36,368 bases of DNA from Bacteroidota bacterium. Its GTDB lineage: Bacteria; Bacteroidota; Ignavibacteria; UBA10030. The notes beneath the pieces were generated by a model. That model ran no database searches. It was not told the DNA's origin and saw nothing but the letters and a program-made list of their open reading frames with translations. The position numbers were made by a program, and so were the translations under genes. Of this stretch, positions 2,257 to 21,703 are shown piece by piece. Positions within the stretch are counted from its first letter, which is position 1. Every line of letters starts with the position of its first letter. The DNA is taken from NCBI GenBank assembly GCA_016928255.1, contig JAFGLB010000149.1, positions 1-36,368 on the forward strand, given 5' to 3'.

Positions 2257-3786
2257 ATGAATCGCACATTGCCTCTTGTTCTATTTATTATGGTCATATT
2301 AGCCATTTCGATTGCACTTGCTGAAGATCCGGTGATAGGGAAAATAGCACGCTATTGTAATCCTTTGCCGATGATTACTGCATTGGGAAGTAGTGCATCC
2401 GGAGATGTCACAGTTATACGAGAGCAGGGCAAATATTATATGTATTGCACAGGCGGCGGTGTGTGGATTTCGGATGATATGCTCAGTTGGTCCTTCCAGC
2501 GCGTTGATAACGTTCCAGTTGCACCCCATGTTGCAAAATACAACGGCAGTTTCTATATGTGCGGCAATGACGGGCCTGTTTTCAAAGCAGATAATCCATT
2601 AGGACCCTTTGTCAGCATCGGTGAATGGAAAAACACTCCGGATGTTAAAGGCGGCTGGAATGGCCCTTTTGATGTGGATATTTTTATCGACGACGACAAT
2701 ATACCGTATCTCTATTACCCCGGTCGTGGAGTCAGCGGAATATATGTCGTGCAACTCGACCCGAACGACCTCAGCAGGTTCGCCGGTCCTGTTAAACATC
2801 TCTTCGGATTTAACAGCGATCATGTTTGGGAACGTTACGGTGAAATGAACGAGTATACAGATGTTGCGTGGATCGAAGGTCCATGGCTTCAGAAACACAA
2901 CGGTATATATTATCTGCAATATTCGGCTTCAGGAACGCAGTGGAAGACTTATGCCGAAGGATATTACACAGCCAAGTCTCCTATGGGACCATTTACATAC
3001 GCACCAAACAATCCTTTGCTGCGAAGAACGGATGGTATCGTTACCGGTCCAGCTCATGGCAGTATTGTCGAAGGACCTGACGGTAATCTCTGGCAATTTT
3101 ACACGATTGTCCTTTCAAATCCGCCGGGCGGACGGCGTATCGGGATGGATCGCGTAACTTTCGATAAAGATGGTAATATGTCGGTTAAGGTTACCGACAC
3201 ACCCCAATGGGCACCTAATGCAGTCAGCGATCCGATGAAGGGTAACAGCGGTTCAATCCCCGTGACAATCAACAAAATACGTGCGATGAACGCTCTCTCA
3301 AAATTTTCTTCACAACAGTCGGGGCGGGATGCTGCATATGCTGTAGACAACTCCAGCGGCACCTGGTGGGAACCTGTACCTGAAGATACACTGCCGACTC
3401 TAATGATAGAGCTTTCTCCTGCTACACGGTTTGATGTTGTGCAATTGTTCAATATAGATGCCGTTCGTCTTATGTTTAACAGCGGGAGACGGGGTTTTGG
3501 AAGACCTTTAGCAGCAGGCACGGCACAACTCTCACCAGATATTTATCAGTATAAAATTGAAGTATCAATAGACGGAGAGACGTACCTGACAGCTCTTGAC
3601 CAAACAAAGAATATAATTTCGCGAAATACAATTTTTGAAGAAATTCCACCGGTGAAATGCCGCTTTGTCCGATTGACAATCACGAACTGGCCGCGGACAA
3701 CACCGCTGGGAATTTTAGAGTTCACTATTTTTGGCAGACCGGCAGAGTCTTTACCTGCTGATCAACCAATACCAATTGTGCAGTAA
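2257..3786 (+). CDS. Secreted GH43-type glycosidase with C-terminal discoidin (F5/8 type C) domain
   Basis: Predicted inverting glycosidase of the five-bladed propeller type, probably an arabinofuranosidase, xylosidase or galactosidase acting on plant polysaccharide. The frame opens at 2236, but the ATG at 2257 has an AGGA ribosome site just upstream and leads straight into a signal peptide, so I chose it. Residues below count from 2236. The GH43 triad is visible: Asp57 in SGDVTV (base), Asp146 in FDVDIFIDDDN (pKa modulator) and Glu214 in AWIEGPW (acid). About residues 350-500 form an F5/8-type carbohydrate-binding domain (RDAAYAVDNSSGTWW). It lies 146 nt after the GH27 gene and before another GH43-fold enzyme, so the three may be co-expressed. 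The subfamily, and so the exact linkage cut, cannot be read from the sequence. Confidence 0.88.
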   Translation: MNRTLPLVLFIMVILAISIALAEDPVIGKIARYCNPLPMITALGSSASGDVTVIREQGKYYMYCTGGGVWISDDMLSWSFQRVDNVPVAPHVAKYNGSFYMCGNDGPVFKADNPLGPFVSIGEWKNTPDVKGGWNGPFDVDIFIDDDNIPYLYYPGRGVSGIYVVQLDPNDLSRFAGPVKHLFGFNSDHVWERYGEMNEYTDVAWIEGPWLQKHNGIYYLQYSASGTQWKTYAEGYYTAKSPMGPFTYAPNNPLLRRTDGIVTGPAHGSIVEGPDGNLWQFYTIVLSNPPGGRRIGMDRVTFDKDGNMSVKVTDTPQWAPNAVSDPMKGNSGSIPVTINKIRAMNALSKFSSQQSGRDAAYAVDNSSGTWWEPVPEDTLPTLMIELSPATRFDVVQLFNIDAVRLMFNSGRRGFGRPLAAGTAQLSPDIYQYKIEVSIDGETYLTALDQTKNIISRNTIFEEIPPVKCRFVRLTITNWPRTTPLGILEFTIFGRPAESLPADQPIPIVQ

Positions 3787-9262: not shown

Positions 9263-9346
9263 TGCCCGAAGGGGGACTTGAACCCCCATGGCCTTGCGGC
9301 CACTAGCTCCTGAAGCTAGCGCGTCTGCCAATTTCGCCATCCGGGC
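9263..9346 (-). tRNA. tRNA-Leu (anticodon CAG)
   Basis: An 84-nt cloverleaf can be folded by eye on the minus strand. The 7-bp acceptor stem pairs GCCCGGA with TTCGGGC (one G-T pair) and ends in a discriminator A. The anticodon stem-loop has loop TTCAGGA, with the anticodon CAG at 9310-9312. The long variable arm (TGGCCGCAAGGCCA) marks a class II tRNA, as in leucine tRNAs. The T arm contains GGTTCAAGTCC. The 3' CCA is not encoded. A TATAAT-like box sits about 10 nt upstream and a terminator follows. Confidence 0.96.
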
Positions 9347-11481: not shown

Positions 11482-13641
11482 ATGAAAAAACATATGTTAT
11501 TTATAATTCTCTTATTAATCGGATTAGTATTTCCGGCTAATTCACAAACAGTTCAGATACAGTATAATGTATCCGTACCGCAGGCGAAATATGCAGCTGG
11601 AGTCCTGCAAAAAAGTCTGGAGAAAAAAGGGTATACGATAAAAGAAAAACAGGCTGATTATGTTATAGATATAATTGTGAATACTGATGACCTTACCGCT
11701 GAGTCATACACAATCCTTCCTGAAAATAAAAAAATTATCATAAAAGGCGGCGATGGCAGAGGTGTTATTTACGGATGTCTGTCACTCGCAGAAGATTTGC
11801 GTAACGGTATAATTCTGCAAAATATCAGGCCGAGAACCGAAGCACCAAGATTATCATTCCGCACTATAAAATTTGACCTTCCCTGGGATACTTACCGGCA
11901 TAGTCATGCCTTAAATTTGCATCAGGAAACCTGCCGTGATCTGAACTACTGGGAAGTTTTCCTCGATATGATGGCGGAAAACAGGTTCAACACACTCACG
12001 CTCTGGAACCTGCATCCTTATCCGTTTATGATAAGACCGAAAAATTTTCCGGAAGCCTGCCCGTTCAACGACGAGGAAATGAAAAAATGGACCAAACTGT
12101 TCAGCGGAATTTTTCGAATGGCACGCGAACGCGGCATAGATACTTACATGGTGCCTTTTAATATATTTGTGAGTCCTGAGTTTTCCCGCGCACATAATGT
12201 CGCAATGGATAACCTGGATCATGAACATTTTGTAAAAGGCGATACTTCTGAAATTATTAAACGCTATACGCGGGAGTGTGTTACACAGATACTTCAGGAT
12301 TATCCCGAACTCACCGGGATGGGACTTACGCTTGGTGAAGGTATGGGAGGTATGACTCCGCAGGAGCGCGAAAACTGGATGCAGGAAACCATTATCAAAG
12401 GTATGAGTCTTGCCGGCCGCAGATCAAAGCTCATTCATCGAATTCCTTTTTCAAGCACTACCGGATCCTTGGGCCCGACCAGCATCGAAACCGAACAGAT
12501 AACAAGGGAAGGAATAGAAAAAGAAGGAGAATTGGACTTTATCGAAGGCCCGGTCTGGGCGGATCTAAAATTCAACTGGTCGCACGCTCATTCAACAACA
12601 AAATTGATAAAAGTGCATGGCGGGAAACTGTACGGAACATATTTCTATCCCGAGCCGAAGAATTATAAGATTGTATGGACGGCACGCAACGAGGATTTCT
12701 TCTGCCTTCGCTGGGGTGTACCGGATTTTATCCGCGAACACATTAACAGCAACGCGCATAGTTATGTAGGAGGTTATATAATCGGATCTGAGACTTATAT
12801 ACCTGCGAAGGATTACTTTACAAAACCGGGAATAAAGGTAAGCTGGAAATATGCATTTCAGCGGCAGTGGCTGTTTTATAAATTATGGGGAAGATTGCTT
12901 TATAATCCGGCAACACCCGACAGCGTGTTCAAAGAAGAATTTATTCGGCGTTATGATAAAAAAGCTGGTATTCTGCTTGAAGCCAGTTCGCTTGCCGGAA
13001 AAACACCTTTGCGTCTGGCATCATCATTCGATTGCGGCTGGGATTTTACTCTTTATAGCGAAGGATTCATGGCTCTGAACAATGAAACCAGCAGAGTGGA
13101 ATATATTTCAGTCGATCGGCAAATCAATCAGCCGCCTCTCGATACGAATTATATATCTGTGAAGGAATATGTAAAAGGAATTGAGTCGGGAAAATCCATC
13201 GTGAGTGATAAAATTACTCCTCCTATTTTAACTCAAATGCTCCATCAGGATTGTACCAAAGCTCTTGATCTGATTAAGAAAATAAAAAACAGTAATAATA
13301 ATGATCTAATTCAAGAAGTCGCAGATATAAAAGTCTGGGCAAATATGGGTTTATATTTTGCTGAAAAACTGAAAGGCGCTGTTGCATTGGAGACTTATCG
13401 TGTCATAGGGGGAGAAGAAAATAAGCAAGCGGCAGTGAAGCATTTGGAAAGAGCTTTGAAATTCTGGGATATTGTAATTGGTATAACCCGCCCGATTTAT
13501 AACGACATGCCGCTGGTGCATTACAGCTCGCAGGACGGCAAGAACTGGAAAGAAAATGTTCATCTTCGTTTTCACTGGGAAAAGCTGAGATCCGAAGTAG
13601 CAAAAGATATAGAAATTGCAAAAAATTGCAGACGCAATTAA
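11482..13641 (+). CDS. Secreted glycosidase-like protein, alpha-glucuronidase-like (family uncertain)
   Basis: Signal peptide at residues 1-22. Residues 23-125 resemble the small alpha/beta domain that precedes the barrel in GH20, GH67, GH84 and GH115 enzymes (KKIIIKGGDGRGVIYGCLSLAEDL). Residues about 135-470 look like a TIM barrel (NRFNTLTLWNLHPYP, GMGLTLGEGMGG, DFIEGPVWADLKF, LYGTYFYPEP). The C-terminal 220 residues are mostly helical. A glutamate in TLGEGMGG or DFIEGP could be catalytic, but I cannot assign it. Downstream location next to a glucuronoyl esterase makes an alpha-glucuronidase role plausible. That is inference, and I do not match it to a specific GH family with certainty. The 244-nt gap upstream shows no clear signal. 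Confidence 0.65.
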   Translation: MKKHMLFIILLLIGLVFPANSQTVQIQYNVSVPQAKYAAGVLQKSLEKKGYTIKEKQADYVIDIIVNTDDLTAESYTILPENKKIIIKGGDGRGVIYGCLSLAEDLRNGIILQNIRPRTEAPRLSFRTIKFDLPWDTYRHSHALNLHQETCRDLNYWEVFLDMMAENRFNTLTLWNLHPYPFMIRPKNFPEACPFNDEEMKKWTKLFSGIFRMARERGIDTYMVPFNIFVSPEFSRAHNVAMDNLDHEHFVKGDTSEIIKRYTRECVTQILQDYPELTGMGLTLGEGMGGMTPQERENWMQETIIKGMSLAGRRSKLIHRIPFSSTTGSLGPTSIETEQITREGIEKEGELDFIEGPVWADLKFNWSHAHSTTKLIKVHGGKLYGTYFYPEPKNYKIVWTARNEDFFCLRWGVPDFIREHINSNAHSYVGGYIIGSETYIPAKDYFTKPGIKVSWKYAFQRQWLFYKLWGRLLYNPATPDSVFKEEFIRRYDKKAGILLEASSLAGKTPLRLASSFDCGWDFTLYSEGFMALNNETSRVEYISVDRQINQPPLDTNYISVKEYVKGIESGKSIVSDKITPPILTQMLHQDCTKALDLIKKIKNSNNNDLIQEVADIKVWANMGLYFAEKLKGAVALETYRVIGGEENKQAAVKHLERALKFWDIVIGITRPIYNDMPLVHYSSQDGKNWKENVHLRFHWEKLRSEVAKDIEIAKNCRRN

Positions 13642-13708
13642 CCTTGTCAAGGTTTCAAACCTTGACAAGGTTGATTAAAAGATCTGGCAATGCCATGGCT
13701 GCGGTAGA
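13638..13708. repeat. 71-bp palindromic repeat, copy 1
   Basis: Two adjacent palindromes, AACCTTG-T-CAAGGTT (13640-13654) and AACCTTG-A-CAAGGTT (13658-13672), are followed by a conserved tail ending in GCGGTAGA. The element matches the copy at 15910-15980 at 69 of 71 positions. It begins just before the stop codon of the preceding gene ends. A 12-nt palindrome and TTAGGCAT follow. Confidence 0.9.
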
Positions 13709-13866
13709 TCTGATCAGATGTTATTAGGCATTAGAATTTATCATTTTCTAAATTCATGAAAGTAGTATATACAAAATTACATATCCAAATGGAAAGACAC
13801 TTGTCTGTTCTCCTGCGATGTGTAAACAAGCAGACAGGGCGGGCCAAGGAGATAAAGAAAAAGGGT

Positions 13867-13896
13867 TTGACTTACCTGTTCGATAGTATTTAAACT
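13867..13896 (+). promoter_or_regulatory. Weak sigma-70-like promoter candidate before the 13934 gene
   Basis: TTGACT at 13867-13872 and TAAACT at 13891-13896 are separated by 18 nt, about 38 nt before the ATG at 13934. The -35 matches 5 of 6 consensus bases and the -10 matches 4 of 6. Confidence 0.25.
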
Positions 13897-13933
13897 CCGG
13901 CAGAACCGTCATCTATTAGGCATTACGAAAAAT

Positions 13934-14476
13934 ATGAAAACGAAATATAGAAATATCGTAAAAGTCACTTTTATTATCGCTATTGTATTATTTTGTTTTA
14001 TGATATATAATTTCTTTTGTGAGGTTACTGTTATCAATAAGCTTCTTTATGGTGAATTACAGAGCAGATCAATCATTTTCAAGGACAATGTTACCGTTCC
14101 ATTATTTATTGATGTTCAATTTAGTCCGATTTATTCTTGGTTGAACTCTGGCTTTAATTCTTATATTATCCAGTCATTACAAACCCAAAGACCGTTTGAG
14201 AATTTGAAAATTATTGCGCGTAAGGATGCAGTTCCAATTAGAGAATTCATGGGCCATATTCATACCGATGGTGCCGCTGGTTATAAAGATGCAGAGTCAG
14301 GTGAGATGGGTGAATCCATTTCTATTGGTCCGATTTATTGGGTTCATCCATTCAAAGTCAAAGTTCGTTGTTCATCATATGTAAATCCATTGTGGGGCGG
14401 GTCTAGTGAGTTAATTATGGCTTTAGGCTTCGATGGATGGAAACAGTTGGGTGTAGATAATAATGCAATCTACTAA
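13934..14476 (+). CDS. Hypothetical single-pass membrane protein
   Basis: I do not recognise a family. Residues 8-28 form one hydrophobic segment (VTFIIAIVLFCFMIYNFF), probably a membrane anchor with the rest outside the cytoplasm. The remainder is a 150-residue soluble domain with HIHTDGAAGYKD in the middle and a hydrophobic, Trp-containing C-terminus (WGGSSELIMALGFDGWKQLG). No catalytic motif is evident. Base composition is more AT-rich than the glycosidase genes upstream. It is the first of three small membrane-protein genes lying between the two 71-bp repeats, with no clear ribosome site. Confidence 0.6.
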   Translation: MKTKYRNIVKVTFIIAIVLFCFMIYNFFCEVTVINKLLYGELQSRSIIFKDNVTVPLFIDVQFSPIYSWLNSGFNSYIIQSLQTQRPFENLKIIARKDAVPIREFMGHIHTDGAAGYKDAESGEMGESISIGPIYWVHPFKVKVRCSSYVNPLWGGSSELIMALGFDGWKQLGVDNNAIY

Positions 14477-14553
14477 TTGTGACGCCTAAATTCTATTTAT
14501 CTGATTGAATTTTGCAAATGCGCAAATAACTGAATAAATAAATGGAAAAATAA

Positions 14554-15108
14554 ATGCAAACATTCATAACGTTTTCTTTATTGATACTAATATTTTCAGT
14601 TCTATCTTACTTAGCGAAATCACCTCCGAAGTATATAGAAGTCGAGGATGGTATACTGCTTACTTATCCTAAAACTTTTATGATTATTTTTGTCGTTTGT
14701 TGCGGCATTTTACCGCTTGGTCTTTGTTTAGGCCTTTTATTGAAGATAGGTCTGAATTCGAATGGTGAAATAGTAGGTTTTACGATCGCAGTAATTTTAT
14801 TTTTATCTTTTTCTATTTTAGGATATCTAAAGTTAACACATGATAAGATAATGGCGACATCAGACGGTATTTTTGCGGACTATCTTTTTCGTTCGACTTA
14901 TTCATTTTATTGGAAAGAGATATCAAAAGTGACATATTCTAATTATGGACGGCAATTGATTTTTGAAACTGCAGATAAGAGAAAGTTAAAGATCAGCATC
15001 CTTTTCAAGGGATTCCCGATATTATGCCAATTGGCGGCTACTAAGTTACCCCAGAGTATTTACCTCGAAGAACTTGAAAAGGCGAAAAAGGGGAAAATAT
15101 TTATTTAG
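14554..15108 (+). CDS. Hypothetical membrane protein with a possible PH-like C-terminal domain
   Basis: Not assigned to a named family. One hydrophobic segment lies at residues 1-18 and two more at about 40-65 and 72-95. After these, the chain reads DKIMATSDGIFADYLFRSTYSFYWKEISKVTYSNYGRQLIF in separate strands. This arrangement resembles bacterial PH-like domains that follow two membrane helices, but similarity is by pattern only. A GGA-containing site precedes the ATG. It lies 77 nt after the previous gene and 32 nt before the next, so the three are probably one transcript. AT-rich like its neighbours. Confidence 0.6.
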   Translation: MQTFITFSLLILIFSVLSYLAKSPPKYIEVEDGILLTYPKTFMIIFVVCCGILPLGLCLGLLLKIGLNSNGEIVGFTIAVILFLSFSILGYLKLTHDKIMATSDGIFADYLFRSTYSFYWKEISKVTYSNYGRQLIFETADKRKLKISILFKGFPILCQLAATKLPQSIYLEELEKAKKGKIFI

Positions 15109-15140
15109 TCTAAAATTTCTAAATACGTGAAAGGCAATTT

Positions 15141-15836
15141 ATGCAATGTGCATACTGTGGAAAGCAAATTGAATCATCAGCTCCTATTTCGGAAGATGGA
15201 CTCTATTTTTGCAATCCCCTACATCGATTTTCGTATAAAGAATCGCGAGGGATTAATAGTTCATCTGAAACTTTAAAACCAAAAGATACATCGATTTCTA
15301 AAATTGTGAATTCTCCCGTTGATGATTTATCCGAAAAAAAGGACGTCAAAAACAGAGTCGGCACAGCAATAGGTGTTTTAGTCGGTCTCGCAGCAGGTTC
15401 ATATTTAGGAGTGGCAGGATTTGTTCCTCTTATTTTATTTGTCATTTTCAATCTAGTTTTAAAAAAGAATATTACACTCGAGCCAAATAATAAACTCGCC
15501 ATAATAATACAGAGTTCTCATGTCGGTTGGATGTTAATCGGTGCTCTTATACTTAATGCTTGGTCTGAGATGTTTTTTGATATTATAGTTCTTTCTATTG
15601 GTGTATTATGGCTATTTTTACATTTTAGCATTATTCCGATTATTCTGTTGTCAATATATCATATTATCTTGATTTATCTTGGTGCTATAATGCTTTTACA
15701 AACAGAAGTAGGTTCAGAAAGTTTTAAGGCTTTGATAGTGCATATTATACTCCGATTATTCGCATTGTTCTTTATGAGTATGAGCTATATCAATTATAGA
15801 AAGAAAACCGCAGGCCAAACAAATGCATCAATTTAA
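15141..15836 (+). CDS. Membrane protein with N-terminal zinc-ribbon-like segment
   Basis: The N-terminus carries MQCAYCGKQI and then DGLYFCNPLHRF, a CxxC plus C-x(3)-H arrangement that could bind one zinc ion. Residues 35-75 are polar. From about residue 75, four or five hydrophobic segments follow, including one with small residues (VGTAIGVLVGLAAGSYLGVAG). The chain ends in a basic tail. No enzyme motif is visible, and I do not know its function. An AAAGG site lies about 9 nt before the ATG. The second 71-bp repeat starts 74 nt after its stop. Confidence 0.6.
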   Translation: MQCAYCGKQIESSAPISEDGLYFCNPLHRFSYKESRGINSSSETLKPKDTSISKIVNSPVDDLSEKKDVKNRVGTAIGVLVGLAAGSYLGVAGFVPLILFVIFNLVLKKNITLEPNNKLAIIIQSSHVGWMLIGALILNAWSEMFFDIIVLSIGVLWLFLHFSIIPIILLSIYHIILIYLGAIMLLQTEVGSESFKALIVHIILRLFALFFMSMSYINYRKKTAGQTNASI

Positions 15837-15909
15837 AAAAGATATTTTGAGGTTAGTTATAGAAAGTTGGATAAAAACTTTATTGGGAAGGTTGTATAAC
15901 TAATTAAAT

Positions 15910-15980
15910 TTAACCTTGTCAAGGTTTCAAACCTTGACAAGGTTGATCAAAAGATCTGGCAATGCCATAGCTGCGGTAGA
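15910..15980. repeat. 71-bp palindromic repeat, copy 2
   Basis: Same orientation as copy 1 and differing at two positions (T to C after GGTTGAT, G to A in GCCAT-GCT). It is followed by a different hairpin, CTACTGAAGG/CCTTCGATAG (15987-16009), and again by TAGGCAT, so the element may extend beyond the 71 bp with a variable hairpin in between. Confidence 0.9.
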
Positions 15981-16050
15981 CTGAGTCTACTGAAGGGATA
16001 CCTTCGATAGGCATAATCAGATTATAAACAGCCATCCAAAGGAAATAAAA

Positions 16051-16488
16051 ATGATAAGACATCTTTTTTGTCTCAGTTATATTGTTTGTTTCATTTGTAC
16101 TGGTTGTTCTACAAAATCAATCGTACATCAGAGATCACTCATTCTCACAGAAGATACGGCGATTTATTCTGATGATGATTGGTCTATAATAATAGAAGCT
16201 GGTTCAGATGACAAGGATTTACAGTCACCACAACCAATTGAACAAATCAATCCAATCTATCCTGAAGAAGCAAAAAAACAAGGTATTGAAGGGGAGGTTC
16301 AAATTAAAATTTTGGTAATGAATGATGGATGTACCAAAAGAGGTAAGGTTTTGAAGACTACAAATCAAATATTTAATAAAGCGGCCTTATCTGCTGGAAT
16401 GCAATGGTCCTTTAAACCAGCAGAAGTCAGAGGTAGAAAAATCAATGCTTGGGTATTGATTCCATTTAAGTATAGGCTAGACAATTAA
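16051..16488 (+). CDS. TonB C-terminal-domain lipoprotein
   Basis: A lipoprotein signal ends in ICTGC with the lipidated cysteine at residue 19, so the mature protein should be membrane anchored. Residues about 65-145 match the TonB C-terminal fold: PIEQINPIYPEEAKKQGIEGEV, IKILVMNDG, FNKAALSAGMQWSFKPAEVRG and VLIPFKYRL. This domain contacts TonB-dependent receptors in true TonB proteins, but many small lipoproteins of this lineage carry it without the transmembrane Pro-rich part and have unknown roles. A full-length TonB would have a cytoplasmic start, a helix and a Pro-rich spacer, and none is present. AAAGGA precedes the ATG. Confidence 0.82.
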   Translation: MIRHLFCLSYIVCFICTGCSTKSIVHQRSLILTEDTAIYSDDDWSIIIEAGSDDKDLQSPQPIEQINPIYPEEAKKQGIEGEVQIKILVMNDGCTKRGKVLKTTNQIFNKAALSAGMQWSFKPAEVRGRKINAWVLIPFKYRLDN

Positions 16489-16512
16489 TCTATGCCTGCC
16501 CAAAGATCATTC

Positions 16513-16805
16513 CAGCTCCATAGGAGCTGAATGTTTGTAGAAATTAATAACGATTAAGAAAAGAACACCGTAGGTGTTCAATTCCTACGGAGTTGTCTGA
16601 AAATTTTTAAGCAGATATTTACAGATATTAAACGCCTACGGCGTTTATACATAAATTTGTCTTTTGATTGATCATTCAACTTGTCGTAGGGGCGTTTGAA
16701 TAGAAATTTACTATCCTTTATATTGCGGCAGGCGAATGATTGCGTCAAGAATAATAAAGCCGACGTCAACGACGTCGGCTACAGTTGCTAAACCTTGACA
16801 AGGTT
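16513..16805. repeat. Cluster of five short-loop hairpins
   Basis: Between two convergent genes (16489-16824) lie CAGCTCC-ATA-GGAGCTG (16513-16529), GAACACC-GTA-GGTGTTC (16563-16579), TAAACGCC-TAC-GGCGTTTA (16629-16647), AGCCGACGTC-AAC-GACGTCGGCT (16758-16780) and AACCTTG-A-CAAGGTT (16791-16805). All stems are perfect. Loops are 3 nt, except 1 nt in the last. The last hairpin is the same palindrome as in the 71-bp repeats. No protein-coding signal is seen here. Confidence 0.85.
16688..16708 (+). repeat. 21-nt sequence repeated at 21708
   Basis: AGGGGCGTTTGAATAGAAATT, less its last base in the quoted 20-nt run, recurs at 21708-21728 with two changes (CG to TA). It lies inside the hairpin cluster. 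Confidence 0.6.
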
Positions 16806-20679: not shown

Positions 20680-20758
20680 TAAATACTTTCCTGTAAATTA
20701 GTAAAATGATAATGCTATACATTATAGGGAGTAATTGATATTGCTAATTATAAAGAAA

Positions 20759-21703
20759 ATGATAAGAAAAGAAGCATTATTGAGTCTACTATTTGTAATT
20801 TTGTTCTATTTTAATTTAAGAGGACAAGTGCATGTTTACAATTTAGCTGATGATTTTTCAGAATATTACAAACTATATGAAGATGTATCTGATGAATTAA
20901 AAGTTGAAAAATTTAAAACGGAAGTTTATAACAATGCGCCCATGGTCTATGAAAATATATATAATGATATAAAATGGATTGGGCAAAAACCAAGGGGCAG
21001 AATACTTTTGTCGGTAAATAATTTCGTAACTATAGAAAATAAATATTCAGAATTAAGTAGATATTTGGATACTCTGTTTGATTATTCATTGTTGTCCTTC
21101 CAAAAAGAATTTACTGATTTTAAACCTGATTTTGATGTTTATATTTTGCATAGTTTAGGAATACGTGCTGGGGGATTAGTAAAGATTCAAGATGAAAATG
21201 TATTAATGTTTGGTGTAGACCAAATTGCAAAGCATTTTGACTTTCAAAACTATACCCCGTTTTTTCATCATGAATTGACTCATATATATCATTCCCTGTA
21301 TTACACACCTATTGAAGATGGTAGATATTCAAAAGGAGCATTATATAATCATTTATGGAGAGAGGGGTTGGCAGTTTATATAAGTTCAGTTTTAAATCCT
21401 GATGCCAGTGATAAAGAAGTATTTATGCATGACAGTCTTCCTCAAAAAACGGATAAAGTATTAAAAATCATAGCACAAGATGTTATTAAAAATTTATATT
21501 CTACCGATAAAGAATTAATCAGAAAATATTTTTGGGAATCTTCTACAGACACTGTTATTCCTAAAACAGCAGGTTATTATTTGGGATATATTTTAGCTAA
21601 AGAAATAGGTAATGAATATTCTTTAAATGAGCTAATAAAACTTAAGGAGGATGCATTCGTTCATAAATTTGAAATAATTTTAAATAACATTTGTAATCAA
21701 TAA
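20759..21703 (+). CDS. Secreted HExxH metallopeptidase-like protein (unclassified)
   Basis: The frame extends to a TTG at 20735, but the ATG at 20759 begins a good signal peptide (MIRKEALLSLLFVILFYF), giving 314 residues. Counting from that ATG, HHELTH carries the zinc-binding HExxH at residues 171-175, and a further Glu in WREGLAVYIS at residue 202 fits a gluzincin third ligand. Such a His-Glu...Glu layout with an EGLA segment occurs in DUF2268-like and related predicted zinc proteases. No family name is certain. The gene is clearly more AT-rich than the DUF5916 gene upstream, with many AAA, AAT and TTA codons, which may mean a separate origin. Confidence 0.65.
   Translation: MIRKEALLSLLFVILFYFNLRGQVHVYNLADDFSEYYKLYEDVSDELKVEKFKTEVYNNAPMVYENIYNDIKWIGQKPRGRILLSVNNFVTIENKYSELSRYLDTLFDYSLLSFQKEFTDFKPDFDVYILHSLGIRAGGLVKIQDENVLMFGVDQIAKHFDFQNYTPFFHHELTHIYHSLYYTPIEDGRYSKGALYNHLWREGLAVYISSVLNPDASDKEVFMHDSLPQKTDKVLKIIAQDVIKNLYSTDKELIRKYFWESSTDTVIPKTAGYYLGYILAKEIGNEYSLNELIKLKEDAFVHKFEIILNNICNQ

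Follow-up and report, generated by a model that had tools for sequence, protein, structure and literature searches.

Direct repeats around three orphan membrane-protein genes of a Bacteroidota bacterium are probably tailed REPINs of a RAYT-associated family

The window analysed here, a stretch of 36,368 nt from a Bacteroidota bacterium, contains two 71-nt direct repeats that bracket three orphan genes. We consider it probable that these repeats are two related REPINs positioned where genes end, within a variable region, that one was probably copied from the other, and that they belong to a family scattered by a transposase of the RAYT type. REPINs are REP doublets that form hairpins (PMC3116915).

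The repeats, at 13638–13708 and 15910–15980, are identical at 69 of 71 positions (97%, two mismatches); the 36-kb window has no other pair of long direct repeats. Both copies begin with TT, continue with AACCTTGTCAAGGTT-TCA-AACCTTGACAAGGTT, which forms a 33-nt hairpin, and end with a 36-nt tail (Table 1). Past the 71 nt the two copies diverge, so that each is followed by a different hairpin, and TAGGCAT stands after both. A repeat search and folding thus agree with a preliminary description of this DNA, which had reported the pair, its internal palindromes and the differing hairpins with TAGGCAT. The start of the first REPIN falls within the stop codon of the upstream glycosidase-like gene, which ends at 13641. 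In Rfam, the only match in the window was a tRNA (9263–9346); weak matches to the hairpin fell far under their cut-offs.

Table 1 Repeat elements, leader and orphan genes in the window
Feature	Positions	Strand
REPIN 1: inverted 15-nt REP palindromes AACCTTGTCAAGGTT and AACCTTGACAAGGTT, 3-nt loop	13640–13672	.
Copy 1 tail, 36 nt, GATYAAAAGATCTGGCAATGCCATRGCTGCGGTAGA, common only to copy 2	13673–13708	.
Leader: hairpin ATCTGATCAGAT and two TATTAGGCATTA copies (ends 13733 and 13925)	13709–13933	+
Orphan gene 1: 180 aa, one N-terminal membrane helix	13934–14476	+
Orphan gene 2: 184 aa, about three membrane helices	14554–15108	+
Orphan gene 3: 231 aa, N-terminal CxxC cysteine pair, about six hydrophobic segments	15141–15836	+
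REPIN 2: sequence same as REPIN 1, 76 nt 3' of orphan gene 3	15912–15944	.
Copy 2 tail: first 36 nt match copy 1, the whole a multi-arm fold	15945–16020	.
Lone REP palindrome of the same family as REPINs 1 and 2	16791–16805	.

The hairpin is a dispersed element of this genome, in which the 33-nt sequence gave 34 BLAST matches (both strands counted). Its half-palindromes were found 53 times with at most one mismatch, a modest number, against 0 for a reversed control pattern, and the gap between the halves differs from place to place. All 21 hairpin places examined lie outside ORFs, mostly no more than about 25 nt from the end of a gene and usually from its 3' end; on C199, C42, C166 and C69 a REP overlaps the stop codon of an ORF, some of these ORFs being only putative genes. 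The REPs are also clustered, with at least eight pairs within 2.5 kb where 0.6 are expected, as counted among the places listed in a fragmented assembly. What lies between other REPIN pairs of the genome is a transposase gene, a gene that by eye resembles those of MATE-type transporters, or nothing. The bases adjoining the hairpin vary among copies and a GTAG-type guide tetranucleotide is not present at its foot, which excludes canonical GTAG REPs but not an atypical class.

Exact copies of the palindrome were likewise present in Kaistella, Chryseobacterium, Epilithonimonas, and Frigoriflavimonas; viral contigs gave no exact match to it. A literature search found no mention of the 15-nt palindrome, and the hairpin is an element of a known class, the REPIN, that apparently has no name in this lineage. 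The preliminary description, which proposed a genome-wide copy count, had held that a common intergenic element would speak against gain of the segment. The answer differs for the two halves of the repeat, as the hairpin is dispersed and intergenic (the 53 half-sites above) and the tail was found in this pair alone. A cluster of other palindromes (CTCCATAGGAGCTG, CACCGTAGGTGTTC, and CGACGTCGGCTAC) was seen at 16500–16800 of the window, between the TonB-like and BON/SH3 genes; these are possibly other REP-like families.

The link to a RAYT comes from another contig of the same genome (G000:C149:3395–3886), which carries a Y1 transposase (RAYT) gene matching Pfam PF01797 above the cut-off. This gene lies between two 63-nt composites of the same palindrome, which are 94% identical and in direct orientation. 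The same palindrome stands on both sides of a related RAYT in Kaistella sp. SH40-3 (L062) and adjoins the RAYT on one side in K. jeonii (L059), while among RAYT relatives from the same genus, family, and order, gene-specific palindromes of their own flank about 17 of 30 loci, by our reading. Dispersal in the genome, together with RAYT flanking here and in relatives, identifies the hairpins as REP doublets. Judged by sequence, the 33-nt hairpins are REPINs of the kind spread by RAYTs, and this RAYT is their putative mobilizer. Two further arrangements were observed at such loci. In Kaistella sp. SH40-3 (L062, ~2286–3214), a REPtron consists of the RAYT and three REPINs, one of them within the RAYT gene, and is flanked by 59-bp direct copies, 92% identical, of the 3' end of the host gene. 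On C149, a gene of about 228 codons (G000:C149:3988–4674, L081) lies between the second REP composite of the RAYT and another REPIN.

Compared with the published REPINs (PMC3116915), the elements described here likewise consist of an inverted pair of short palindromes and are dispersed, intergenic, and RAYT-linked, but they have no GTAG foot, a low copy number, and a private 36-nt tail. A second described system may be compared at the level of the transposase: TnpAREP subclass 2.6 of Bacteroidetes is associated with atypical structures without a GTAG foot (PMC6006769), and in both cases a Y1 gene is flanked by palindromes lacking the canonical foot, with palindrome copies elsewhere in the genome. 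However, the motifs of the subclass are NH[LIV]H and YIH[QN]NP (PMC6006769), whereas the C149 RAYT carries NHYH and YVHLNP; this is not an exact match, and the C149 RAYT may belong to this subclass or to another. The repeats also resemble BIME-type composite REP elements, in which REP palindromes recur as one unit with further short sequences, but there are only two copies of the present composite.

The tail is what sets the pair apart from the rest of the family. Its 24-nt core was found, at up to three mismatches, nowhere beyond these two copies in the own genome and five congeners, and none of 84,980 species genomes (the own genome maybe not among them) contained a 23-nt core exactly. A single exact viral match to the tail core (L040), located inside a GNAT-acetyltransferase-like gene, was taken as chance. 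Other REPINs of the genome likewise share a private tail, another one of about 50 nt that follows the REP on C188 (two copies), C211, and C30; the two on C188 lie 375 bp apart and are 92% identical over 91 nt, with no gene between them. Such sharing suggests that REPINs are copied with adjoining DNA, and this would explain the 71-bp pair without cargo; we infer that the tails are co-mobilized. As DNA, the copy 2 tail folds well (z −3.4), unlike that of copy 1 (z +0.6), which makes copy 2 more likely the older of the two.

The genes between the repeats comprise three open ORFs with a GC content of 0.33–0.34, compared with 0.41 for the window; codon usage does not set them apart. Their GC content, hydrophobic segments, and lack of family matches bear out their earlier characterization as small, AT-rich, unrecognized membrane-protein genes. 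Nothing significant was found for them with Pfam, NCBIfam, PADLOC, or PHROGs models. No relative of orphan gene 1 was detected in 394 other genomes of the phylum, nor of genes 2 and 3 in 60 related genomes, and searches of plasmids (genes 1 and 2) and of viral contigs (gene 2) gave none either. Since no relatives were found in the genomes searched, the three genes look lineage-specific among these genomes. Their arrangement suggests a co-transcribed membrane-protein operon. Single-sequence structure predictions for the products of orphan genes 2 and 1 had mean pLDDT values of 54.8 and 39.0, respectively, too poor for a fold search, and the C-terminal part of the gene 2 product is perhaps beta-rich in a low-confidence model. 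Upstream, TTAGGCATTA occurs exactly at 13724 and 13916, so a short leader sequence does recur just before gene 1, as had been noted; a repeat of at least 11 nt in this 225-nt leader has P ~0.013 by Markov sampling, which is at most suggestive. A 45-codon reading frame between the two TATTAGGCATTA copies had no matches.

In the mechanism we propose, this REPIN family would be scattered by a single-strand transposase of the RAYT type, encoded at another locus of the genome, and the REPINs would settle in intergenic DNA, mostly against the 3' ends of genes. One copy of the pair would have been made from the other, REPIN and tail together, by RAYT action or by local duplication. As a result, near-identical direct repeats would come to flank an unrelated three-gene orphan operon without being dedicated cassette ends. 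The repeats could in principle permit RecA-dependent or slippage loss of the 2272-bp (2.27-kb) segment; a literature search on recombination between REPs found nothing on point. Two observations count against this explanation: the tail, in the own genome and five congeners, is unique to the pair, which makes the pair more special than a plain REPIN, and the enclosed genes show the lineage specificity that cargo would have.

The preliminary description had seen in the segment a cargo unit gained or moved by recombination between the repeats. A circle with the three genes and a single copy of the 71-bp repeat could have integrated into a resident copy by homologous recombination, which we judge unlikely. 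Near-identical direct repeats and the absence of the genes from relatives would be expected from such an event, and copy 2, with its complete, better-folding tail, would resemble a resident site that had kept its original right flank. However, neither an empty site, nor a circular form, nor a second copy of the segment was found in the own genome or in relatives, no genome compared sharing the flanks, and REPIN pairs elsewhere have similar repeats without such cargo. The AT-richness, moreover, runs on past the right repeat into the TonB-like gene (16051–16488, GC 0.34); as the AT-rich stretch crosses copy 2, it does not delimit a unit between the repeats. The comparison of the locus in relatives that had been suggested did find the genes missing, but the glycosidase-like gene on the left and the BON/SH3 gene on the right are missing as well, in five of five congeners, so that gain between the repeats is inseparable from general turnover of the region. 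What stands of the cargo claim is that the genes are lineage-specific, which fits gain at some time. Half of each repeat is a dispersed REPIN, and given the extent of the AT-rich stretch and the equally variable flanks, it is doubtful that the repeats mark the limits of acquired DNA or that repeats and genes move together. Further along the window, a very AT-rich gene (20735–21703, GC 0.275) was observed in this contig of 0.41 GC; a protein that by eye is similar to its product, with an HExxH-like motif, is encoded on G000:C66 at ~27.5–28.5 kb (L080).

Direct transport of the genes by the RAYT, which would cut at the outer tailed REPINs and move the whole operon segment as single-stranded cargo in the manner of IS200/IS605, appears very improbable. 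The RAYT gene itself lies between direct composite repeats, and the gene-end copies around the Kaistella SH40-3 REPtron would also suit movement of a larger unit; yet, according to a published report (PMC6006769), REPtrons do not seem to move as whole units, and no second copy of the segment was found in the own genome or relatives. We found no report in the literature of a gene-cargo role for RAYT systems. An integron-like array of cassettes, in which the repeats would serve as attC sites, was tried and rejected, and we give it hardly any credence. The conserved arm, variable hairpins, and TAGGCAT do resemble the plan of an attC site, and an integron-integrase-like C-terminus is encoded at a contig edge (G000:C42:5–202, L078). 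But neither sequence nor folds revealed a pair of RYYYAAC/GTTRRRY boxes where the tail folds have their base, shuffled sequences fold at least as well as the copy 1 tail, the dispersed palindrome makes up about half of the repeat, and no match exceeded the integron-integrase cut-off, the best one being cut by the contig edge. That C42 match scores 109 bits over 65 model positions, and its TAA stop overlaps a REP of the present family.

With the repeats read as tailed REPINs, a striking repeat pair finds its explanation in an established class of small mobile DNA, and a specific pairing of palindrome and RAYT is provided for a lineage in which REP elements seem little described. If it were true that the segment moved with its repeats, RAYTs would carry genes as well as hairpins.
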